From a virus, in the IMG/VR virus record IMGVR_UViG_3300027839_000070, positions 1-23,731 of that record: DNA of 23,731 nucleotides; one strand, 5' to 3'. The position numbers and the translations under genes were made by a program. Of this stretch, positions 4,033 through 12,643 are shown in pieces. The first letter of the stretch is position 1, and every line of letters begins with the position of its first letter. A model generated the notes under the pieces. The model was not told the DNA's origin. It saw only the letters and a list, made by a program, of their open reading frames with translations, and made no database searches.

Positions 4033-4248
4033 TTAGTTGCGGTTCTGGGTGCCCCTTAGCTGGCGTTCCCCGTGGTCTAGTGTCCGGTGGTGTAGGCGTT
4101 CTTCCCACCACAGGCGGCACCATGCTACCGCCTCCGGTGCGTCAATGAACGTCTGGGCGCTCGATGCTCTATCGAAGGCGTCGAGGTCCGATTGACTCTG
4201 GCGGTACTGGTTGCGGAAGGCGTTGAGGACGCGGTTCTCTGCTGTCAT
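4033..4248 (-). CDS. Hypothetical protein (71 aa) in head region
   Basis: Starting at ATG 4246-4248 gives an ATGA overlap with the upstream gene, so that start is preferred over the longer frame to 4326. The 71-residue product is charged and probably helical, with MTAENRVLNAFRNQYRQSQS at the N-terminus, a helix with AVAWCRLWWEERL near residue 40, and a polar tail ending in RGTQNRN. No family recognised. It is the last gene before the gap that precedes the scaffold and so belongs to the glycosyltransferase/MuF transcription block. Confidence 0.6.
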   Translation of the reverse strand: MTAENRVLNAFRNQYRQSQSDLDAFDRASSAQTFIDAPEAVAWCRLWWEERLHHRTLDHGERQLRGTQNRN

Positions 4249-4739
4249 TCTGCCAAGAAGTCCCGCGTCCACCCGCTCAACGCTTCCCACCCGGTCGTGT
4301 GGCCTTTCCGCTTGGCTTGTACCCACCGAATCCTATACTTGGAATACTTCCAGTAGCCATCACGCCAAGGGTTCGGCCCATCTTCTAGCGGGACGCCAGC
4401 GAACACCACCCGTTCGGCTCCTAGCACATAGCGGGCAACGCCACCGGCATACATCGCGGAGCTACCGCCGACCCACATACTGAGGTTGTCGGGTTTCCAG
4501 CCTATCGCCCCGCCCTGTGGGTCATGCGTGTAGAACGGGACCGGCTCGAACCCGGCAGCTTCGCGCTTGCCTATCCACTCCCCGACGAACTCAGGGTGAA
4601 GCGTGGCTACGGCGTCCAAGTGTTCGACGTTGTAGGCCGCGTGATTAATCCCGATGCGTATGCCGCCCCACGGGCCTAATGCCTCAAGGTCGGACGCTAG
4701 GCACTCGGCACTCCCAACGATTAGGGCCTCAGTCCTCAC
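4245..4739 (-). CDS. Small Rossmann/glycosyltransferase-like protein of phage head modules
   Basis: The 164-residue product starts at GTG 4737-4739, overlapping the upstream gene by 11 bases. It opens with ALIVGSAECLASDLEALG (a β strand, GxA loop and helix), then GINHAAY, DAVATLHPEF, and a second conserved block GGSSAMYAGGVARYVLG followed by VVFAGVPLED. It ends with WEALSGWTRDFL. 'TLHPE', 'GSS...A...A...G...V...GVP' and 'SGWTR' form a pattern I know from small phage proteins near coat genes, with the layout of DUF115/GT42-type transferases. Biochemical role is not established. Beside a larger DUF115-like protein it may be a partner or second transferase. Confidence 0.6.
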   Translation of the reverse strand: MRTEALIVGSAECLASDLEALGPWGGIRIGINHAAYNVEHLDAVATLHPEFVGEWIGKREAAGFEPVPFYTHDPQGGAIGWKPDNLSMWVGGSSAMYAGGVARYVLGAERVVFAGVPLEDGPNPWRDGYWKYSKYRIRWVQAKRKGHTTGWEALSGWTRDFLAE

Positions 4740-5664
4740 TCGCGAACCGGATCACGCGCTTCAGGAAGGACTCGCTTTTGCCGTCCAGCGCAGCGGGGAG
4801 GGTCTTGCCCAAGAACACCACGCGCTTGCCTGCTTTCTTGAAATCCCGCTTTGCCCTTACGAGCTCCGTGGCGCTCAGAAGCATATCGGCTTTCGTGTGG
4901 TACGTCTTGCCGTCCACCTCGCCGTGCAGCCATACGTCATCATCTGCCAGTTTGCCGCCGTCAGCATACATAGCGCCCGCTGGCCCAAGTGCGTTGTCAG
5001 CACCAGCCAGATAAACCTTCTTGAATCCCATATACAGGGCGAGGTCGAGCGCGCGGTTGACTACGTTCAATCCACGCCCAGCTAGTGCGGTGTCTGGGTA
5101 GAGCAGCCGGTAGAGGTACGGCTCGTCTTCGCCGCCCCGCAAGCTGTGGAAGTATCTGATCGGGTAGCCGCGTGCCTCAAGGTGCCAGACTAGGCCGGGA
5201 TTGACGCTTGTAGCTAGGTAGTATTCGGTGTTCGGCGGATCGGCCCAGACGGCCCCGAACATACTTGTGTGGGGGTCAATAGCCACGCCCTTCGCGTTGC
5301 TCACGCCCCACTCGTGTAGGTAATTCAAGGCTCTGTTCGCGCCCCACACTTCGCCTTTGAACTTCTTGATAAATGGCCGGAACTTGGAGAGCGACGGACC
5401 CGCGCCGCATATGATTAGCTCTTGGCCCTCGTACTCGTTCGCCGTCAGTACGGGATGCCTGCCGGGAAGGGTGCCGCACTCGCAAGGCTCCGGTGTTATG
5501 TCTGCGAGTACATCATTGCCGGGCGTCGGGCGTGAGCACACAGGACAAAGCGAGTTTGCGACGATGAAGCCTGAGACATTCTCGGCGCTCTCGGTCTTTA
5601 ATCGGATCTCCTGCCGTCCAGCGGGGCCGCGTGCAATCACTGCGATCTCGTTGGGTTCACTCAT
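4729..5664 (-). CDS. Maf/DUF115-like putative nonulosonic-acid glycosyltransferase with N-terminal zinc ribbon
   Basis: The 311-residue product has two parts. Residues about 40-63 carry C40, C43, C61 and C63, a likely zinc ribbon. Residues about 82-230 match the DUF115/MAF_flag10 pattern: LIICGAGPSLS (84-93), WGANRALNYL with AIDPH (128-132), then GRGLNVVNRALDLALYMGF and VYLAGADNA (217-225). In flagellated bacteria Maf proteins with this domain transfer pseudaminic or legionaminic acid to flagellin, while other DUF115 members have been assigned to pterin metabolism. Because CMP-sugar genes lie in the same operon, a transferase role is favoured here. The start ATG 5662-5664 overlaps the upstream gene by eight bases. 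The zinc ribbon is unusual for the family and may bind the acceptor. Confidence 0.6.
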   Translation of the reverse strand: MSEPNEIAVIARGPAGRQEIRLKTESAENVSGFIVANSLCPVCSRPTPGNDVLADITPEPCECGTLPGRHPVLTANEYEGQELIICGAGPSLSKFRPFIKKFKGEVWGANRALNYLHEWGVSNAKGVAIDPHTSMFGAVWADPPNTEYYLATSVNPGLVWHLEARGYPIRYFHSLRGGEDEPYLYRLLYPDTALAGRGLNVVNRALDLALYMGFKKVYLAGADNALGPAGAMYADGGKLADDDVWLHGEVDGKTYHTKADMLLSATELVRAKRDFKKAGKRVVFLGKTLPAALDGKSESFLKRVIRFASED

Positions 5665-5968: not shown

Positions 5969-6144
5969 TGCTTCGCCGCTGGCTTCTCAGTTAGTGGCGT
6001 GAATCGGATTCCGTTGTCACCCTTGTATGGCTCGCGGTGGTCGTGGCTACCCTCTAGGATTTTCTGTGGGATTCTGGCCGGGTACGCATCACAGGAAAAC
6101 GAGCCCCGGTAGTGCTCGCATTTGATACACTGGTCGCTTGTCAT
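5965..6144 (-). CDS. Small Cys/His protein (59 aa) following MuF gene
   Basis: The gap after the MuF gene is filled by a 59-residue frame whose ATG (6142-6144) forms ATGA with the MuF stop and whose TGA forms ATGA with the next gene. Both ends fit the operon exactly. The product begins MTSDQCIKCEHYRGSFSCDA, continues with YPARIPQKILEGSHDHREPY and GDNGIRF. C6, C9, C18 and the SHDH histidines suggest a small metal site. 'C..C......C.A.P..IP..I..G...H...Y.GD.GI.F' is a recurrent pattern in small phage proteins next to minor head proteins. Its function is unknown. Confidence 0.8.
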   Translation of the reverse strand: MTSDQCIKCEHYRGSFSCDAYPARIPQKILEGSHDHREPYKGDNGIRFTPLTEKPAAKQ

Positions 6145-8060
6145 GCTCCCCCCGCTGCTAGTTGTTTCATCACCTTTTTGTACGCTTTAAGTATCCCCTC
6201 TGGCACCTCTGACCACCGCCCCGTGTGAACCAACGCGCCCACCTCTGCCCATAGTTCAGAGAAGCTAGACGCCCCGTATTCACTCACGCGGAACCAATCA
6301 AGGTGTGTTTGACGATACATACCCACACCGCTGCCACTAACATCGCTCTCCTTCAGTGCGGCCTTCCACAATTTATCTGTGGCCGGGTTGTCGAAATATA
6401 CAGCGTGGGATGCTTCGTGGGCTGATACCGTTTCTAGTCGCCCGACGCCCTCCACACTATCAACGCTCCACCGCTTAGACACGCCCGCCGCCGCTCGTCT
6501 GTGTTCTGCCAGTGCCCGGTGCTGGGCCACGGTGGCGTTCCTTAATACCCTTTCTTGGGTCGCAATCGTTCGGAGTTTTTGTGCCTCAAATGCCCGCCTT
6601 GTCGCCTCCTGGGATTTCGTTTGATTCTGCTTGATTGCCGTCTTTCGGTAGCTGATCTGGGTTATTTTTTTCCGCTCACCACTAACTCTAGAGACTAGCG
6701 TTCGCCGCTCGAACTGAGCAATACTAGAGCCGCGCTTGGCGACAAACCCCACCCGGTTCACCCGCACGCCCACGGGACTCAGGGTCGAATGTAGGCCCGC
6801 AAAAATATCTTGAAGTTTTGCTAACGGAGTCTTGGCTATAAAGTCAGCGTCAACGGTGTCGGCAAACTCACGCACCGCGAACGCTTCGGCCTCTGCCTTG
6901 GTTGCGAATGTCGGCGTGGTTAAAACCTCGCGTGGTGTTGGCAGGGTGGTCGCCACTGTCGCAGTTCTCGCACCCGCACCTCCAACCTTCTTCTCAAGTT
7001 CGGCCAGCGTCAGGATGCGTCTATCGGTGCCAACCATGCGGTCGAGGGGCATCTTGCGGTCCCGAAACAGTTTAGCCCTACCGGGTCCGAGGATATCGTT
7101 CTGGACGGCTGGCTTCTGGCCGCGTAGCCATGTCTCGTATGTCGTGTCTCCGGGAACTTGGGTGCGTTGCTTGCTCAAGCTCTCGCCCCTGAGTCTAGCG
7201 TCTTGGTCGCGGGCGAACCGCTCGCCTTCTTCGGGTGGCTTGAGTCCTAGCTTTTCCCAGTCCACAATAGGGACCAAGGCGCATCTGCATTGCATATGAG
7301 CGGGCGGGGTCAGGTCGGGGTTATCAGCCGACATCACCGTACCGTCCAACCCTGCACACTCAACGCATACAAGGCTATCCAGCGCGCTGATCCATTGCAC
7401 AGATGATACCACGTTGGGGTTCTGCTGATACGTCAACATCTGTGCGCGGCTCGCTATCTCCGTGACCGCTGTCCTGACGATGGCTTCTGCTTCCCTTCGT
7501 GATGCCTGCCACGCACCACGGACACCGTTACCGCCGCGCACCTGTCGCACGAGCCACCCGATGCCTTGTTCCTCCATCATGCCGCGCTGCACGATCTGCC
7601 GCACCCTGCGAACGGTGCCCGCTTGCTGCACCTTCGCCCATCCTGCCAGCGTCTCGCCTTGAAACGGGTTTGTGTCCAATATCGCCTTCACCATGTTCTG
7701 CGTTGGTGCGGCCATGTTCACGGCAGACGTGGCAACTCCTAGCGTAGCCACTAGATCGGCGGCGGTTTGTTGGCCGTGCGCCCTGCCGAGCCGCGCGAGA
7801 TCACTACGCACGGCTGTGTTCCACTCGGCGTATGCGTCACCGGACAGCCTTTCCACGCGGGTGACAAGTTTGGCAATCCTCGCCCGTTGGTAGCGGATCG
7901 CAGCCGGTCCCGTCGGGTCTATTCGTGCGATCTCGGCGGCGATGTCATCGAATAGGCTTTCGAGGATACCGGACGAATCGCGGGCAATGGCGTTGTTGAG
8001 CCGTTGGAGCGTGAACGTCTGGCGGATAACCGCCTCGATAGGGTCAGCGTGGCCGGGCAT
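6141..8060 (-). CDS. MuF / SPP1 gp7-type minor head protein with C-terminal HExxH domain
   Basis: The start ATG 8058-8060 has GAGG six bases upstream; a TTG six bases earlier is less likely. In the 639-residue product, residues about 140-265 form the MuF domain: GIGWLVRQVRG, REAEAIVRTAVTEIASRAQ, then WISALDSLVCVECAGLDG and PAHMQCRCALVP with C232, C235, H255, C258 and C260. This protein sits in the head near the portal and affects DNA delivery. Residues about 290-530 are a charged linker rich in Lys, Arg and Gln. The last 100 residues contain SAHEASHAVYF (HEASH at about 548-552) and FSELWAEVGAL, a zincin-like HExxH...E layout. This resembles MuF proteins that carry C-terminal effector domains ejected with DNA. 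The protease role is inferred. Confidence 0.82.
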   Translation of the reverse strand: MPGHADPIEAVIRQTFTLQRLNNAIARDSSGILESLFDDIAAEIARIDPTGPAAIRYQRARIAKLVTRVERLSGDAYAEWNTAVRSDLARLGRAHGQQTAADLVATLGVATSAVNMAAPTQNMVKAILDTNPFQGETLAGWAKVQQAGTVRRVRQIVQRGMMEEQGIGWLVRQVRGGNGVRGAWQASRREAEAIVRTAVTEIASRAQMLTYQQNPNVVSSVQWISALDSLVCVECAGLDGTVMSADNPDLTPPAHMQCRCALVPIVDWEKLGLKPPEEGERFARDQDARLRGESLSKQRTQVPGDTTYETWLRGQKPAVQNDILGPGRAKLFRDRKMPLDRMVGTDRRILTLAELEKKVGGAGARTATVATTLPTPREVLTTPTFATKAEAEAFAVREFADTVDADFIAKTPLAKLQDIFAGLHSTLSPVGVRVNRVGFVAKRGSSIAQFERRTLVSRVSGERKKITQISYRKTAIKQNQTKSQEATRRAFEAQKLRTIATQERVLRNATVAQHRALAEHRRAAAGVSKRWSVDSVEGVGRLETVSAHEASHAVYFDNPATDKLWKAALKESDVSGSGVGMYRQTHLDWFRVSEYGASSFSELWAEVGALVHTGRWSEVPEGILKAYKKVMKQLAAGGA

Positions 8061-8748
8061 AAGCAACCTCTAGGGCCTGGACAATGTTCCAATCAAGTTC
8101 GTCGTCTATGTCGAAGGACTCCACACGGTCGGCTTCGACGCCCCAGACGGGTCCGTCCCATATCGCTGTGCGAGCGAATAGCGCCGCGCGCGTCATACCG
8201 TAACACCCAGCGTGTACCCACGCCGGTGGTAACTGCTGGCGTGCGACGGCTTGACTATCGTCGTGGACCGTCAGGCCATCGCGTCCCCACCGGAGAATGT
8301 CAAACGCGGGATGTTTGTCGCCTTTCGCGACGGACATCACGACGGGGTGCGTATCTGATGGTCCTCTATCAATACCCCTAAGCGATGCAATCACTTGCCG
8401 CACTGTCTTCGCTGTTCGTAGCGGGCGCGTCACGTCCACGTCCACGATGCGCGAAGCTTCGGCCCCTAATGCCTCCCACGATGCGACCGCCCAGCGATAC
8501 ACTTCCCACTTTGAGACAAGCGGGCCAGCTAGTACGTCCGGCCTAGTGATCCAAGTGGCGTCACCGAGGTCGAAGTCCACGCCGGGTATGTAGTCGGTAG
8601 ACACCGCCACATTCTCGCACCCAGCCTCGAACGCTATGCGTATGGCTCGCTCTATCAGCCGCTCACCGCCCAACGTGAGCAGGTTCTTACCCGGCAACCC
8701 TTCTGAGCCAGCGCGGGCGCAAACTAAGCCAAGCGTCACGCCGTCCAT
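8044..8748 (-). CDS. neuA: CMP-nonulosonic acid (acylneuraminate) cytidylyltransferase, NeuA/PtmB type
   Basis: This enzyme would activate a nonulosonic acid with CTP to give CMP-sugar and pyrophosphate. The 234-residue product has the nucleotide-binding loop ARAGSEGLPGKNL (11-23), VSTD (49-52), TRPDVL, then VDVDVTRPLR (102-111), where classic NeuA has 'LQPTSPLR', ARQQLPPAWVHAGCYGM (169-185) for 'R.Q..P..Y..NG..Y', and DIDDELDW (213-220). Length is normal for a single-domain bacterial enzyme. The 'DVT.PLR' variant recalls PtmB-type enzymes of flagellin-modification clusters, which suggests a legionaminic-like rather than plain sialic substrate; that is inference. It overlaps the FmdB-like gene by 13 bases and the MuF gene by 17. 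Confidence 0.85.
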   Translation of the reverse strand: MDGVTLGLVCARAGSEGLPGKNLLTLGGERLIERAIRIAFEAGCENVAVSTDYIPGVDFDLGDATWITRPDVLAGPLVSKWEVYRWAVASWEALGAEASRIVDVDVTRPLRTAKTVRQVIASLRGIDRGPSDTHPVVMSVAKGDKHPAFDILRWGRDGLTVHDDSQAVARQQLPPAWVHAGCYGMTRAALFARTAIWDGPVWGVEADRVESFDIDDELDWNIVQALEVAYARPR

Positions 8749-8969
8749 GTTTTCGCCTTAATCTCCTCGTGCCGTCTGTCGAACTCCTGCGGGTCGCCGG
8801 TGTTTGGGTCGTATGAGTACACCCCAGACGGTGCGACGTGCGGCGCTGCGATCACACGTTCAGCAGGTTTCCCACACTTCGGGCACGGCCTCGACTCGTT
8901 ACGCTTGTCCATGTCAGCGAATTGGTCGGAGTCGTGGCCCTCTGAGCACTGGTATTGATAGAGGACCAT
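8736..8969 (-). CDS. FmdB-like zinc-ribbon protein (77 aa)
   Basis: The frame is open to 9098, but ATG 8967-8969 begins one base after the upstream stop and gives the family-type start MVLYQYQCSEGHDSDQF, so this start is chosen. The first metal pair is C8 and probably H12; the second is PCPKCGKPAERVI with C29 and C32. This is the layout of FmdB/putative regulatory zinc-ribbon proteins, which usually have two CxxC pairs. The tail is polar (DPQEFDRRHEEIKAKTWTA). The role of the family is unsettled. Such small ribbons occur in many phage structural modules, so it need not belong to the sugar pathway. Confidence 0.72.
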   Translation of the reverse strand: MVLYQYQCSEGHDSDQFADMDKRNESRPCPKCGKPAERVIAAPHVAPSGVYSYDPNTGDPQEFDRRHEEIKAKTWTA

Positions 8970-8970
8970 G

Positions 8971-9267
8971 CTACGCCACCCAATCAACGACGTTGATAGC
9001 CCGGTCGTCCACATAGATGTCGGCTGGGAGTTTAATCCCGACGCGGAGCTCGTGGTGGAGGACGCCCCACCTTGCAAGCTGTTCCGCCGTGCGTTCATGC
9101 CAATCCTCGCCTGACCCCGTGCCTCGGGCCGTGTCGATGATAATCGTATGTCCGATCTGGTATAGCTTATTCACCCGCCTTATGCGGCCCATAATAGGAA
9201 CCGAGCCCGCGTAGTCCTTCCCGCGTGTGTCGCACAACGTACCATCCAGATCGAAGCAATAGATCAT
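8971..9267 (-). CDS. HAD-superfamily phosphatase (sugar-cluster type)
   Basis: The start ATG 9265-9267 gives an ATGA overlap and puts the catalytic strand at once after it: MIYCFDLDGTLCDT, with nucleophile D6 and acid/base D8. Motif II is IIIDTARGTG (T46), K79 fits motif III, and IYVDDRA (84-90) is motif IV. At 98 residues it is a minimal capless HAD enzyme. The same short form, with 'D...P....I..VN.LY..GH.IIIDTARG', is found in bacterial surface-sugar clusters close to nucleotidyltransferases. It may remove phosphate from a sugar phosphate intermediate, such as a nonulosonic acid 9-phosphate; the substrate is inferred from neighbours. Confidence 0.78.
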   Translation of the reverse strand: MIYCFDLDGTLCDTRGKDYAGSVPIMGRIRRVNKLYQIGHTIIIDTARGTGSGEDWHERTAEQLARWGVLHHELRVGIKLPADIYVDDRAINVVDWVA

Positions 9268-9815
9268 CGGGGCTCCCCTGCGATAGCCCATGCCTGGATA
9301 GCTGGGCCGCTTGTGCTTTCGTAGTGCTCAACCTCTAACGATATGTCCATGAAATGCCGAAGCAGAAGCGAACGCAGTTCGGGCTGGGTCGGCTCGTGGA
9401 TGTGCCACGGGTTGACTGAGTTGGTTCCGTTGCCGATGGGACAAGATAGCACCAACACACCGCCCGCACTCAGCCGTCCGGCGATCTCAGCCACAAACCC
9501 ATCTTGGTTATAGCGGTCCAAGTGTTCGAGCGTTTCAATGCTCACCACCACGTCAGGATCGGGGGCCTCGCTCGACCATCCCGCCTGCGCGATGTCAGTG
9601 ACGAGGAAGTGAGTAAAACCAGCAACCACTCCGAAGTCACGGTCGAAGGCGTACACGTCATCACCGGGAAGCAACTCCGCGCCGTAGCCGGTCCCGCACG
9701 CTACGTCCCACCACACGCCACCAGTACGGCCCGCAAGCTCTACGGCCCTATCGTACCGGGCAACGTGGCGTGCAATCACGTCCGGGGGTTCGTCACCCAT
9801 AAGGCGCTCATTCAT
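9264..9815 (-). CDS. Class I SAM-dependent methyltransferase
   Basis: The 183-residue product has motif I WWDVACGTGYGAELL (35-49), an acidic strand end at VYAFDRDF (motif II), DVVVSIETLEHLDRY (motif IV and the following 'LEH'), and GGVLVLSCPIGNG (motif V/VI) followed by NPWHIHE. This is the Methyltransf_11/23 layout seen in small-molecule and sugar methyltransferases. The start ATG 9813-9815 overlaps the upstream gene by eight bases, and the end forms ATGA with the HAD gene. Position between NeuB and HAD genes suggests it may methylate the sugar product, but no acceptor-binding feature is visible. A DNA-methylase role is unlikely because no target recognition domain or DPPY motif is present. 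Confidence 0.78.
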   Translation of the reverse strand: MNERLMGDEPPDVIARHVARYDRAVELAGRTGGVWWDVACGTGYGAELLPGDDVYAFDRDFGVVAGFTHFLVTDIAQAGWSSEAPDPDVVVSIETLEHLDRYNQDGFVAEIAGRLSAGGVLVLSCPIGNGTNSVNPWHIHEPTQPELRSLLLRHFMDISLEVEHYESTSGPAIQAWAIAGEPR

Positions 9816-10308
9816 ATGTTACTGGCTCCACCCAACGCAGGGGACCGACGAAAGCATGGGGCGACTTCCAAGGGGCATCCAGACCCACGAAACGGGGCTT
9901 GCAAACACCGTCCTCGCGCAAAAATACGGCAGCGTCCCGGCTTCTATACAGCGCGCCCTCGCTCGCCCTCGCTCGGTGCAGTAATGAACCGCGGGCAATC
10001 CAGCGGCGGCGTGCAGGGAGGAGGCTCGCGTCCTTCATCCGTTCGATCCTGACACGGTACTCAATTGACAGCCGTGCGGCTTCCTTTTTCGCTTTCTTTT
10101 TCGCTTCATTCCTCTCCCACCAGCTAGGGCTCACCGGGTTGTAGCCCATGCGTATAGCCGCAGCGACCAGCGGCCCAAGGGTTCCGCGTCCGATCTCTAG
10201 GTCCACCCGGTCCAGCACATCGTCCTCAAAACACGGCACCACCTGTTCCGCCGCCAGTCGCGGATGGTGGGGCCGGGCGGTGTCGCCCCATTCGTTGAAG
10301 ACCCTCAT
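9808..10308 (-). CDS. Hypothetical protein (166 aa) in the sugar cassette
   Basis: The start ATG 10306-10308 forms ATGA with the NeuB-like gene. The product begins MRVFNEWGDTARPHHPRLAA, with an acidic patch around PCFEDDVLDRVDLEIG, an aromatic segment NPVSPSWWERNEAKKKAKKE, then a strongly basic helix (RVRIERMKD, ARRRWIARGSLLHRAR). The C-terminal part is FLREDGVCKPRFVGLDAPW, ending VGPLRWVEPVTYE. I recognise no family. It is not an obvious SAF/antifreeze-like domain that could replace the one missing from NeuB. Basic charge and tight coupling leave open a structural, nucleic-acid-binding or pathway-specific role. Confidence 0.6.
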   Translation of the reverse strand: MRVFNEWGDTARPHHPRLAAEQVVPCFEDDVLDRVDLEIGRGTLGPLVAAAIRMGYNPVSPSWWERNEAKKKAKKEAARLSIEYRVRIERMKDASLLPARRRWIARGSLLHRARASEGALYRSRDAAVFLREDGVCKPRFVGLDAPWKSPHAFVGPLRWVEPVTYE

Positions 10309-11198
10309 GCTGTCTCCGTGTGTTTCAGCTTGTCGCGCTGGACGCGCTCGGTATCGAGCAGGCCCGTGTCGCCTTTTGTGCCCCGTGCCCGATGAACCTC
10401 CTCGACGCCTCGGACCAGCTTGCGGATACCGTCAGGCTCTAGGCTCGCGGAGTGGTCCGTGCCGCGCCACGTCCGGTTGAGCGTGTAATGTCTTTCGATA
10501 TGGCTTACGCCCTTGGAAGCTGCCACCATGTCAACGGCTATCCCGTGGTGGTGTCCACTGAATCCGAACCCGGCAACATCGCCACCGTACCGGGCTTTCA
10601 GTGTGTCGATTTCGTCCATCCTCACGTCCTCTGTACGCACCGGGTAGTCAGATGTGCAGTGGTAGAGCGTGGTGCGCCTCGCTGCGCCCATTCGCGTCAG
10701 GAGCTCCACTAGCGTGTCGGCCTCAGAGCGTAGCGTCATGCCGAGGCTGATATGCAAAGGCCCGCCCCAATCAGCCAGCCATTCGATCAGCGGCCAGTCG
10801 AGGTTATGTGCAGACGGGACTTTGATCCACGCGGGGTCTAGTCTGGCGACTTCTTCGGCTGCTGGGATATCCCACACGCTGCACGCATAGGTCACCCCGA
10901 ACGCTTCCGCGCAATCCCTCAGATCGTCGTGCTGTGCGGCGTCGAACTCTAACGCCTCGCGGTGCGCTCCGTAGCTGTCGCCATAAGCGTAGTAGGGGTT
11001 AGGGTGCGGACGTTCGTAGTCGGACGGCTTGAGCGACACCGTGCGTTTTTGGAACTTGACCGCAACACCCGGACGGTCGCCGCCTAGCTGGAAATGCTCA
11101 GTACAATACAGGCCCGCGATCTCTATCATCCTGCGCGCGGTGTTGATATCGCCTCTGTGATTTCCTCCTACCTCTGCGACAACGAGCGGGGCGGTCAC
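10305..11198 (-). CDS. neuB: N-acetylneuraminate synthase family (NeuB/SpsE/PseI/LegI type), barrel only
   Basis: This family condenses a hexose (for example ManNAc) with phosphoenolpyruvate to a nine-carbon nonulosonic acid. The 297-residue product has the barrel motifs in order: VVAEVGGNHRGD (6-17), VAVKFQKR (45-52), REALEF (80-85), YACSVWD (104-110), IKVPSAHNLDWPLI (125-138), SLGMTLRS (151-158), LYHCTSDYPV (178-187), GFSGHHHGIAVD (211-223), IERHYTLNRTWRGTDHSASLEP (split around 234-255). It then stops near KHTETA without the usual C-terminal SAF domain of about 60-70 residues, whose Arg normally helps bind substrate across the dimer. An insert (about 30-44) lies before the KFQ strand. It starts at GTG 11196-11198, overlapping the portal stop (GTGA). 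Exact substrate cannot be told. Confidence 0.88.
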   Translation of the reverse strand: MTAPLVVAEVGGNHRGDINTARRMIEIAGLYCTEHFQLGGDRPGVAVKFQKRTVSLKPSDYERPHPNPYYAYGDSYGAHREALEFDAAQHDDLRDCAEAFGVTYACSVWDIPAAEEVARLDPAWIKVPSAHNLDWPLIEWLADWGGPLHISLGMTLRSEADTLVELLTRMGAARRTTLYHCTSDYPVRTEDVRMDEIDTLKARYGGDVAGFGFSGHHHGIAVDMVAASKGVSHIERHYTLNRTWRGTDHSASLEPDGIRKLVRGVEEVHRARGTKGDTGLLDTERVQRDKLKHTETA

Positions 11199-12643
11199 GC
11201 TTCCCCATTACTCACGACGCCGCGCATGACCTCTAGCGACTCGCCCGCAGCGGAGTCGATCCGGTCACGTTCGATATCAGCGTCAAAGTCCGACGGGTTG
11301 ATCCCGCCTTCTTGGAGCTTGTTCCAGAGCGTATCAATCGACCACTGACCCCTAAGCACAAGCTGGCTGTACTGATCCACCTCCGCGCTGGATAACGTCT
11401 GGTCCTCAAACTCACGATTGATAGCGATGGAACCGCCGGTCTTCAGTCTCATGAAGTTGGCGTGGAACTGTTGGGCCGCTTCCACGCAATCTTGAAGCGA
11501 ACGAGCGGCCGCGGCTAGTTGCGATTGCTCGACGTTCGAGTCCTGCCGGTTGGCTGTCGCTGTCTCCGCTGCTTTTCGCTCCTTTTGGAGCATCGTCAGC
11601 CCGCCGGTAGCCATATCCGCCTTGAACTCTTGCAACTGCTTTATGTTCGTCTCAAAGGCGTTGCCTTCTGGCTCTAGGTAATAAGCCTTCCCGCCTGGGT
11701 CTGGGATCTTAATGCCCGCGTTGGGGCCGAACACGATCTGCGAGTCCGCGTCCACGCCGCTGATTACTGGCGTCAGGACGTTGGAGATGTGCAGACAGTA
11801 CCGATGATCTGCGAGCGTCTGGTAGTGCGCTATGTTCGTATGTGCAACGTCTACGAGCGGGGGGCGGGACTGTAAGAACCCGGTCCTGCGTGAGTAGAAC
11901 ACCGAGAACGGGATCTCAGTCTGGTTCGTCACTACAAGCGGCCCGCTGTCTAGCACCGGCTCCGCGCCCCTCTCGCGTGCTTCCCACACCTCTACGGTGA
12001 CGATACCACCTTCGCGGCGGTAGACACGGTAACGGCTCACGGCTTTCTCACCGAACGCGCCATCTTCTACCGTCGTCGGCTCATAGAGCACCAGTTGGGA
12101 TAGCGCGGTTTTTCCGTTCTCGTTGACGGTGCGCCACCCGATAATCTGCTCCTTGGAGACGGCTATCCAATAGGGGCGAACGCCCAGCACCGACTCCTCG
12201 GCGTCGGTGAGCGTGCGCCCGTCCGCCGATTGCACACTCGGCGCGTCCACTAAGATTCCAGCGTGGCCGGTTTCTAGGCCGTCTTCGAACAGCGAGCGCG
12301 TGAACACGTCCAGATGTGCCCCGGCGTAATCGACATTCTCAAGGTGCTGCAGGATCACCTCCGGCACATCTGCGCTTGGTGTCGGGTCTTTACGGAACAC
12401 CATGCCAGCTAGTCCGGTCACCGTCCGTTCGACGGCGTTCACCGACAGCACGGCCATAGATAAGCGGCGGTTGTAATCGTCGCCCTCCTCGCTGGCGTGC
12501 TTAGGTAGGTAGCTCGTGGACTGGCTGCGAAGGTGCGACGTGCCTTTAGCAACGTCTCTGACGAGCTTGGCATCGTGTACCATGCCCGCAGCGGCACCGA
12601 TGAGGTAGTCGGGCCTGTTGGGATCTGCTGTTTGCGTGCTCAT
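11195..12643 (-). CDS. Portal protein (DUF4055 type)
   Basis: The 482-residue product matches the DUF4055 portal pattern: SYLPKHASEEGDDYNRRL (about 44-61), NAVERTVTGLAGMVFRKDP (69-87), then LFEDGLETGHAGILVDAP near 118-135 and RPYWIAVSKEQIIGWR. Later segments are PFSVFYSRRTGFLQSRPPLVDVAHTNIAHYQ and TMLQKERKAAETATANRQ. The acidic C-terminus (IERDRIDSAAGESLEVM) is typical. The portal forms the dodecameric ring at one capsid vertex through which DNA enters and leaves. It begins three bases after the terminase stop with ATG 12641-12643 and is followed by the sugar cassette rather than directly by the MuF gene, which is the usual neighbour. Confidence 0.9.
   Translation of the reverse strand: MSTQTADPNRPDYLIGAAAGMVHDAKLVRDVAKGTSHLRSQSTSYLPKHASEEGDDYNRRLSMAVLSVNAVERTVTGLAGMVFRKDPTPSADVPEVILQHLENVDYAGAHLDVFTRSLFEDGLETGHAGILVDAPSVQSADGRTLTDAEESVLGVRPYWIAVSKEQIIGWRTVNENGKTALSQLVLYEPTTVEDGAFGEKAVSRYRVYRREGGIVTVEVWEARERGAEPVLDSGPLVVTNQTEIPFSVFYSRRTGFLQSRPPLVDVAHTNIAHYQTLADHRYCLHISNVLTPVISGVDADSQIVFGPNAGIKIPDPGGKAYYLEPEGNAFETNIKQLQEFKADMATGGLTMLQKERKAAETATANRQDSNVEQSQLAAAARSLQDCVEAAQQFHANFMRLKTGGSIAINREFEDQTLSSAEVDQYSQLVLRGQWSIDTLWNKLQEGGINPSDFDADIERDRIDSAAGESLEVMRGVVSNGEA

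Follow-up and report, generated by a model that had tools for sequence, protein, structure and literature searches.

A NeuB gene among phage head genes

The window analyzed here is the entire IMG/VR virus record IMGVR_UViG_3300027839_000070, a linear virus record of 23,731 bases that is probably a fragment of a larger genome. Its tailed-phage origin is indicated by PHROGs matches to terminase small and large subunits, portal, MuF-type head morphogenesis, scaffold, major head, and neck proteins. The subject of this study is a minus-strand gene for a sialic acid synthase-like protein of the NeuB family that lacks the usual C-terminal SAF domain, together with the gene cassette in which it lies. 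In minus-strand order the genes are portal, NeuB, a 166-amino-acid open reading frame (ORF), methyltransferase, HAD, FmdB, NeuA-like, and MuF, with successive overlaps of 4 to 128 bases; the NeuB ORF starts with GTG and shares 4 bases with the portal stop. Beyond MuF, a 172-base gap is followed by a 103-amino-acid ORF, an MptE-like/Maf-domain protein, and a 164-amino-acid ORF. With a GC content of 0.607, the cassette resembles the record as a whole (0.59). The features are as follows.

11195..12643, minus strand: portal protein (phrog_145), directly upstream of NeuB
10305..11198, minus strand: SAF-less NeuB-family synthase, 297 amino acids, with an intact barrel, K51-R52, a conserved C-terminal helix, and a clade-specific insert at about residues 36 to 45
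9808..10308, minus strand: 166-amino-acid ORF without a family match; not SAF by profile search
9264..9815, minus strand: S-adenosylmethionine methyltransferase (PF13489/PF08241), present in the L002 and L009 cassettes too
8971..9291, minus strand: short HAD-type phosphatase (phrog_1238, 6.7e-23; TIGR01689, 28 bits, below the cut-off of 162)
8736..9098, minus strand: FmdB-type zinc-ribbon protein inside the cassette; the L009 cassette has one too
8044..8748, minus strand: NeuA-like CMP (cytidine monophosphate)-sugar cytidylyltransferase (PF02348, 1.8e-9; PDB 1eyr, 3.2e-9)
6141..8066, minus strand: MuF-type head morphogenesis protein (phrog_241), the first gene past the downstream end of the cassette
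4729..5664, minus strand: MptE-like/Maf-central-domain protein (PF01973, 2.2e-14), with weak fold matches including the sialyltransferases CstII and CstI; candidate transferase
4245..4739, minus strand: 164-amino-acid protein without a family match, downstream of the MptE-like gene with an 11-base overlap

The window protein is a member of the Pfam NeuB family (PF03102, 4.3e-53, residues 46 to 275, 180.7 bits against a gathering score of 22.1). It scored below the equivalog cut-offs for N-acetylneuraminate synthase (NeuB_NnaB, TIGR03569; 156.3 bits, cut-off 399.65) and pseudaminic acid synthase (PseI, TIGR03586; 112.3 bits, cut-off 340.25). Likewise, the product of 8044-8748 belongs to PF02348 (38.1 bits, gathering score 22.6) and scored below the PseF equivalog (39 bits, cut-off 205.7).

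Similar cassettes lie between the portal and MuF genes of other phages (L-numbers label the viral, bacterial, and genome NeuB loci compared). There, L002 carries HAD, NeuB (56% identical to the window's), NeuA, and methyltransferase, and L009 carries NeuB (58% identical), FmdB, NeuA, and methyltransferase, with an MptE-like gene further on. NeuB, NeuA, and the methyltransferase thus share this position in the window, L002, and L009. In the more distant phage L012, the terminase, portal, and minor head genes have a NeuA-HAD fusion and NeuB immediately upstream. Among the open-licence papers listed in our searches, none appeared to describe SAF-less NeuB as a family or a phage NeuB/NeuA/Maf cassette.

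The SAF domain is missing and the barrel is conserved

A previous reading of the letters alone (the sequence-only reading) had described the protein as a NeuB homologue without SAF, and this proved correct for both the 297-amino-acid protein and the whole 23.7-kb record. The protein ends about 42 residues past the DHSASLEP motif, close to the 40 or so estimated earlier, and it does not have the two-domain architecture of sialic acid synthases, a barrel followed by a C-terminal SAF domain with a partner-reaching arginine. Neither the Pfam SAF model (PF08666) run against six frames of the whole record nor our own SAF profile run against 727 six-frame segments of the window gave a match. A SAF domain in a shifted frame or in a neighboring ORF, the finding that could have overturned the reading, was therefore not detected at the sensitivity of these profiles, a negative that covers the linear record only, as a SAF gene could lie past its ends.

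We also searched 72 viral records with PF08666, omitting 12 of the 84 loci (L001, L003, L005, L008, L011, L015, L027, L031, L033, L038, L054, and L081, mostly near-duplicates). Matches occurred in 18 records, every one inside an open frame of at least 329 amino acids, and none was a stand-alone SAF ORF. Two of the 18 were below the family cut-off, and two belonged to the SAF-bearing NeuBs L041 and L062 themselves. The 16 further records (e.g., G047:C1:25276-25452) hold a SAF-less NeuB and, elsewhere, an open frame of 329 to 633 amino acids that matches SAF and is perhaps a second, full-length NeuB.

The catalytic barrel motifs had been called intact, and they are. Counting from M1 (the first codon is absent from the alignments and the structure model), the window protein has E9, N13, K48, Q50, K126, S129, S151, Y185, S214, H216, E235, H237, and D248, which we take to be catalytic and ligand positions. 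Each of the 13 is identical in at least 173 of 174 SAF-less and at least 57 of 58 SAF-bearing rows of the alignment. Their catalytic or ligand role is supported for some of them by parts of PMC7591256.

An AlphaFold2 model built from 51 aligned sequences was confident (predicted local distance difference test [pLDDT] 95.3; predicted template modeling score 0.91). Its closest structures were Neisseria meningitidis NeuB (Z 33.2 to 33.5; root mean square deviation [rmsd] 2.4 to 2.6) and Leptospira borgpetersenii NeuB (PDB 6ncs; Z 33.1, rmsd 3.1), followed by SpsE-type and PseI proteins (Z 27 to 32) and then by 3-deoxy-D-manno-octulosonate 8-phosphate (KDO8P) and 3-deoxy-D-arabino-heptulosonate 7-phosphate synthases (Z 22 to 23.5). 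Foldseek returned the same leading entries. The N. meningitidis enzyme (PDB 1xuu, 2wqp, 4ipi, and 4ipj) shares the barrel over 274 to 276 residues, and the conserved barrel positions align; it differs from the window protein in having a SAF domain with R314 (named in the entry titles and presumably located in that domain), in lacking KR after K-x-Q, and in overall sequence (27 to 28% identity). The deposited Leptospira chain of 290 amino acids, like the window protein, ends after the barrel, although the native protein may be longer, and it has no KR after KFQ.

Two features outside the barrel core had been pointed out. The sequence-only reading was right that there is an insert before KFQ and overestimated its size at about 13 residues; it is 10 to 11. 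The N13-to-K48 spacing is 35 in the window protein and 24 to 25 in most rows. Among 84 viral rows (three unmeasurable), the insert occurs only in L001/L008, L002, L003, L004, and L009, the window's own group. A spacing of 31 occurs in 6 of 80 bacterial rows, two genome rows measured with the same pattern gave spacings of 36 and 43, and in the alignment all 58 SAF-bearing rows are gapped at residues 36 to 45 of the window protein. The insert looks specific to this phage group and looks like the sole such feature of the window protein. We considered it as a SAF substitute and think this unlikely: it is absent from most SAF-less relatives, and in the model it lies between helix 1 and strand 2, on the side of a TIM barrel that points away from the active site. 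The charged tail does lack SAF-like sequence, as had been said, and is not featureless; it contains a conserved helix, modeled at residues 282 to 291 from M1 (model residues 281 to 290), in which E284, K290, and L291 are each kept in 164 to 171 of 174 SAF-less rows and R288 in 148 of 174.

Two relatives have other C termini. In L045 (6989-8245), a SAF-less NeuB carries a cupin domain in the place that SAF occupies in other NeuBs; a role as a mannose-6-phosphate (Man-6-P) isomerase was considered from a Cupin_2 match slightly below cut-off and weak L-ribose isomerase matches, and was not used as evidence. In L134 (Epulopiscium), the open frame of a SAF-less NeuB extends about 340 residues further.

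SAF-less NeuB is an old class shared by bacteria and phages

We compared three sets of loci: at least 80 from a viral profile scan, the best 80 from a bacterial profile scan, and 72 usable of 76 genome loci from PF03102 searches (four had no usable match). L001, L003, L004, L005, and L008 (duplicates or partial) were excluded from the alignment counts, leaving 79 viral rows. By our own SAF profile, the domain is absent from 77 of these 79, the two with SAF being L041 and L062, so the idea that phage NeuB homologues all lack it holds for the great majority and fails for those two. It is also absent from all 80 bacterial rows examined. It is present in 56 of the 72 PF03102 loci, a set of best-scoring matches, some of them from genomes already known to have a SAF-less NeuB, and hence no estimate of frequency. 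By phylum, the best 80 bacterial loci comprise 33 from Bacteroidota, 22 from Bacillota, 11 from Pseudomonadota, members of eight further phyla or candidate groups, and 2 unassigned.

On a tree of 90 rows, the SAF label needs 2 changes, compared with a mean of 27 when shuffled, and one of the two is a single long-branch row, L178. The tree was made by a quick method with Shimodaira-Hasegawa-like approximate likelihood ratio support only and is unrooted, so gain and loss of SAF are not distinguishable on it. The window protein groups with L009 (support 95) and L002 (99) within a 32-row SAF-less clade (98) that includes bacteria. The proposal of a derived phage form is not supported, as bacteria of many phyla have the SAF-less form and the window lies inside a clade including them. 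The SAF-less state is widespread and stable, the mark of a long-standing bacterial and phage clade and not of phage reduction. SAF-less NeuB is a large class for which we found no name, and within it the missing SAF is ordinary.

A KR signature goes with HAD phosphatase neighbors

The SAF-less class has a sequence signature directly after KFQ. K at aligned position 51 and R at 52 each occur in 172 of 174 SAF-less rows, whereas of the 58 SAF-bearing rows 49 have T and 53 have F or Y there; KR and ERH were part of the seed patterns in the viral and bacterial scans, which inflates the KR frequency there. Six SAF-less rows found through the PF03102 profile (L205 to L210) also have KRWAGR. W109, A130, G215, R236, and a C-terminal E...R.KL motif differ between SAF-less and SAF-bearing rows as well. 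The rule is not clean: L179, L204, L041, and L062 have both KR and SAF, and L178 has neither.

In bacteria, 86 of 100 KR genes have an HAD phosphatase gene within 4 kb, as do 2 of 43 others, although the rows are related, so that the counts are not independent and the Fisher value is not a probability. Broken down, the bacterial counts are 82 of 96 for SAF-less KR, 4 of 4 for SAF-bearing KR, 0 of 39 for SAF-bearing non-KR, and 2 of 4 for SAF-less non-KR genes, those two being within KR loci (neighbor counts exclude two of the 80 bacterial loci and one of the 79 viral loci, which had no NeuB match among called ORFs). In these bacterial counts, phosphatase presence follows KR, not SAF.

Because our own HAD profiles had been seeded from SAF-less loci, the neighbor test was repeated with Pfam. 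Among 143 immediate neighbors of 77 SAF-less loci (one gene each side; neighbors of at least 560 amino acids excluded), the families included Hydrolase_3 (45), CTP_transf_3 (52), MannoseP_isomer (3), and DegT (2). Among 132 neighbors of 34 ordinary SAF-bearing loci (two genes each side; 20 of 152 neighbors dropped, namely, all 16 of L285, L288, L289, and L294 and one each of L260, L291, L292, and L295), they included DegT (16), Epimerase_2 (11), and CTP_transf_3 (13). No HAD family was among the 25 of 89 neighbor families listed for the ordinary SAF-bearing loci, the least of which has 3 members.

The arrangement of the phosphatase varies. It shares an ORF with a NeuA match in 57 of 80 bacterial SAF-less loci, whereas it has an ORF to itself in a second SAF-less group (16 of 18 loci) and in 4 of 4 SAF-bearing KR loci, and a short-type HAD occurs in 38 of 83 viral loci. 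These several arrangements suggest that the NeuB-HAD link arose more than once. As to type, the HAD half of the bacterial NeuA fusion L144 scored 171.7 bits against the model of phosphatases for the 9-phosphate of Kdn (2-keto-3-deoxynononic acid) and that of phage L012 scored 145.9, both below the cut-off of 180; KdsC-type HADs occur both in phage L012 and in bacterial relatives. Of the four SAF-bearing KR loci, only L281 had its HAD compared with the PDB; it best matches 3e81/3e8m (176 bits), which we take to be Bacteroides thetaiotaomicron BT1713, a Kdn-9-phosphate phosphatase.

The four SAF-bearing KR rows (L281 to L284, Bacteroides) share KR with the SAF-less class and have a KdsC-type HAD nearby in 4 of 4 cases. 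They differ from the window in retaining SAF, and L179/L204 (within L281/L282) lie far from the window clade on the tree. They may be the Bacteroides Kdn-9-phosphate synthase type. L282 (4170-5915), L283 (5804-7483), and L284 (3241-4917) have long ORFs matching NeuA plus NeuB, with a second NeuB adjoining in two.

The B. thetaiotaomicron synthase uses Man-6-P, and R314 of N. meningitidis NeuB contacts the N-acetyl group of its substrate. KDO8P synthase offers a barrel that works without SAF on a phosphorylated sugar. According to parts of PMC6200933, a Prymnesium enzyme condenses Man-6-P with phosphoenolpyruvate (PEP) to Kdn-9-phosphate, a product accepted by the B. thetaiotaomicron phosphatase, and phosphorylated steps occur in B. 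thetaiotaomicron, Prymnesium, and humans and are missing from many bacteria. For SAF-bearing NeuB, sections of PMC7591256 describe a second domain that supplies residues to the partner's active site. From the KR signature and the HAD neighbors, we infer that the window enzyme would be a nonulosonate-9-phosphate synthase using a hexose-6-phosphate. Such a substrate, not needing the N-acetyl contact, would account for the absence of SAF as well as for the phosphatase. The earlier suggestion of a different hexose gains indirect support in this way, as signature and neighbors point to a phosphorylated one.

The fold of KDO8P synthase resembles that of the window protein (Z of about 22), but identity is 10 to 17%, and profile comparison with the KdsA-like protein of L010 was not convincing (probability 1.5). 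A likeness between K51-R52 and the sugar-phosphate-binding loop of KDO8P synthase was dropped, as that comparison was not significant and left the strand uncovered. L010 itself (8526-10746, a 395-kb viral contig) has NeuB and NeuA followed by a gene resembling that of KDO8P synthase (PF00793), another cytidylyltransferase gene, and an ORF that by eye contains a SIS domain, as if this phage had a KDO pathway too. A cyanophage mannose-6-phosphate isomerase is described in PMC9602691, whose relevant passages do not mention sialic acid, and was not used as evidence.

A candidate transferase

Maf glycosyltransferases move a nonulosonate from its CMP-sugar onto Ser/Thr. The product of 4729-5664 belongs to PF01973 (54.1 bits, gathering score 34.6). 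Passages of PMC11339370 present this region as the central domain of Maf flagellin glycosyltransferases, resembling CstII. Our own Maf profile, built up from two seeds in three rounds, has a match within 4 kb in SAF-less loci of viruses (33 of 78) and of bacteria (12 of 78), compared with 0 of 38 ordinary SAF-bearing loci. The Clostridiales locus L107, with flagellin-type genes by eye, has Maf, HAD, SAF-less NeuB, and NeuA consecutively. It has the same four functional parts as the window, with a NeuB 48 to 49% identical, and is the clearest precedent for these parts working together. It differs in being a bacterial contig, in having a Maf of 610 amino acids with a weak N-terminal Maf match, and in its acceptor, presumably the adjoining flagellin.

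Other candidate transferases occur near SAF-less NeuB genes. GT29 is a eukaryote-type sialyltransferase family. In L007 (7247-12068; huge phage LR756508.1), four ORFs that look alike by eye lie near the SAF-less NeuB, and the one at 9978-10658 matches GT29 (7.9e-32). In L040 (a 131-kb viral contig), the ORF at 5512-6267 matches GT29 (1.4e-12) and adjoins NeuA and SAF-less NeuB; a cupin and a short HAD lie some 4 kb further along. The Maf-profile match of L037 (5034-6989), of the 570- to 690-amino-acid class and within 1 kb upstream of NeuB, has a GT1 domain and a partial MptE-like match below cut-off; similar ORFs occur in L024, L035, L051, L053, L054, L056, L059, L061, L065, L069, L074, and L077.

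Proposed pathway and alternatives

We consider it fairly probable that the cassette makes a CMP-nonulosonate from a hexose-6-phosphate through the SAF-free NeuB and attaches the sugar to a phage or host product, most plausibly a virion or other phage-modified protein. NeuB would condense PEP with a hexose-6-phosphate, Man-6-P being the best single guess, to give a Kdn-9-phosphate-like product. The barrel would need no SAF arginine, the substrate probably being held by its phosphate without, or without requiring, an N-acetyl contact. The HAD protein or a host phosphatase would then remove the phosphate, the NeuA-like enzyme would form the CMP-sugar, the methyltransferase could modify the sugar and may cap it, and the Maf/CstII-like protein would transfer it. 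A virion or phage-modified protein is the favored acceptor because the cassette is embedded among head genes; MuF is a possible one. The gene set is observed; the product, the donor and acceptor of the transferase, the time of expression, and the biological purpose are inferred.

Several findings weigh against this pathway, in addition to the seeding of the scans and the relatedness of the rows mentioned above. In viruses, where many contigs are short, an HAD lies within 4 kb of only 31 of 75 SAF-less KR, 0 of 3 SAF-bearing KR, 3 of 15 SAF-bearing non-KR, and 2 of 4 SAF-less non-KR genes. The window HAD was missed by the KdsC/Kdn-9-phosphatase profile, and its best curated subfamily is far below cut-off; the usual companion of a Kdn-9-phosphate synthase, a Kdn-9-phosphate/KdsC-type phosphatase in the locus, was not seen in the window, where the HAD is of another, short type. 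L009, the nearest relative with a full cassette, gave no HAD match in the 14.6 kb examined. SAF-bearing KR enzymes exist, so KR (phosphate use) and SAF loss were not one event, and the SAF-bearing L202 has M-R-W-A-G-R, most of the SAF-less signature. On the transfer side, the model of the MptE-like protein is poor (pLDDT 65), its nine matches at E values of 0.001 or less (HPPK 8sd5, SteA, and CstII/CstI) have template modeling scores of 0.26 to 0.50, and no acceptor is known for the phage cassette. The protein could possibly be a pterin enzyme instead, as the PF01973 name covers MptE and the fold matches include HPPK 8sd5. A Magnetospirillum Maf structure was absent among the 50 fold matches listed, which proves nothing.

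With regard to the enzyme itself, it might simply make sialic, legionaminic, or pseudaminic acid in the ordinary way, from a host N-acetylhexosamine that is not phosphorylated, and have lost SAF with no change of substrate. Its nearest curated models are NeuB_NnaB and PseI, and L178, on a long branch inside the SAF-bearing clade with neither SAF nor KR, indicates that SAF loss without signature change may happen. We nevertheless find this quite unlikely, since the cut-offs of both models are missed by far and the 2-epimerase and aminotransferase neighbors of ordinary SAF-bearing genes are found neither among the ten cassette ORFs scanned nor, as a rule, beside SAF-less genes (DegT in only 2 of 143 neighbors, and Epimerase_2 not among the 25 families listed). 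Very improbable is the idea, raised by the sequence-only reading, that a separate partner completes the active site, even though SAF-bearing NeuBs do receive a contribution from the partner's domain (PMC7591256, in part). A stand-alone SAF protein was rejected on the PF08666 searches of the record and the 72 viral records. The 166-amino-acid ORF was rejected for its lack of a family match and its narrow distribution: by tblastn among 164 loci it was found only in L005, whose contig matches the window at 99 to 100% identity and may come from the same phage, and not in L002 or L009.

Two further alternatives concern the cassette around the enzyme. It may alter the host surface, for instance to block superinfection, and not the virion, a possibility that we hold to be somewhat unlikely. 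Some bacterial relatives do adjoin polysialyltransferase, pyruvyltransferase, and polysaccharide-export genes, as in surface glycans, and the lack of a known acceptor fits as well; on the other hand, no flippase or lipid-carrier glycosyltransferase was recognized among the ten ORFs scanned, and the cassette genes overlap head genes and lie between portal and MuF in L002 and L009 also. That the HAD belongs to another pathway and is near NeuB by chance seems rather doubtful to us. The window HAD resembles phrog_1238, labeled phosphoheptose isomerase, and the EcbF/BcbF capsule phosphatases (TIGR01689, 28 bits), with a capsule biosynthesis protein (9iqw) as a PDB match, but the same short type occurs near NeuB in L002, L006, and L107, in L002 and L107 together with NeuA, and lies within 4 kb of NeuB in 29 of 78 viral loci examined.

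Implications for NeuB enzymes and phages

A tentative reading, less likely than not, divides NeuB enzymes into two classes recognizable by sequence. SAF-bearing enzymes with T-F/Y may use unphosphorylated N-acetylated hexoses made by genes of the locus, and KR enzymes, mostly SAF-less, may use hexose-6-phosphates from central metabolism, followed by an HAD phosphatase. Many tailed phages might then carry the KR class with NeuA and a Maf- or GT29-like transferase as a self-contained means of putting sialic acid-like sugars onto their own virions. Phage virion glycosylation as such is reportedly already known from work by Freeman et al. in 2023; of interest here are the KR/HAD rule for the class and the presence, amid the head genes of a phage, of a cassette that would make and perhaps also transfer a nonulosonate.

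If the rule is true, many genes that are nearest to the N-acetylneuraminate synthase model could be assigned a substrate class from KR after KFQ, whether SAF is present or absent, and annotations of phages and bacteria from gut and sea would be corrected. The genes beside the head genes would likewise be a testable set for nonulosonate decoration of the phage virion (or the host), a decoration that would bear on how particles meet hosts and immune systems.

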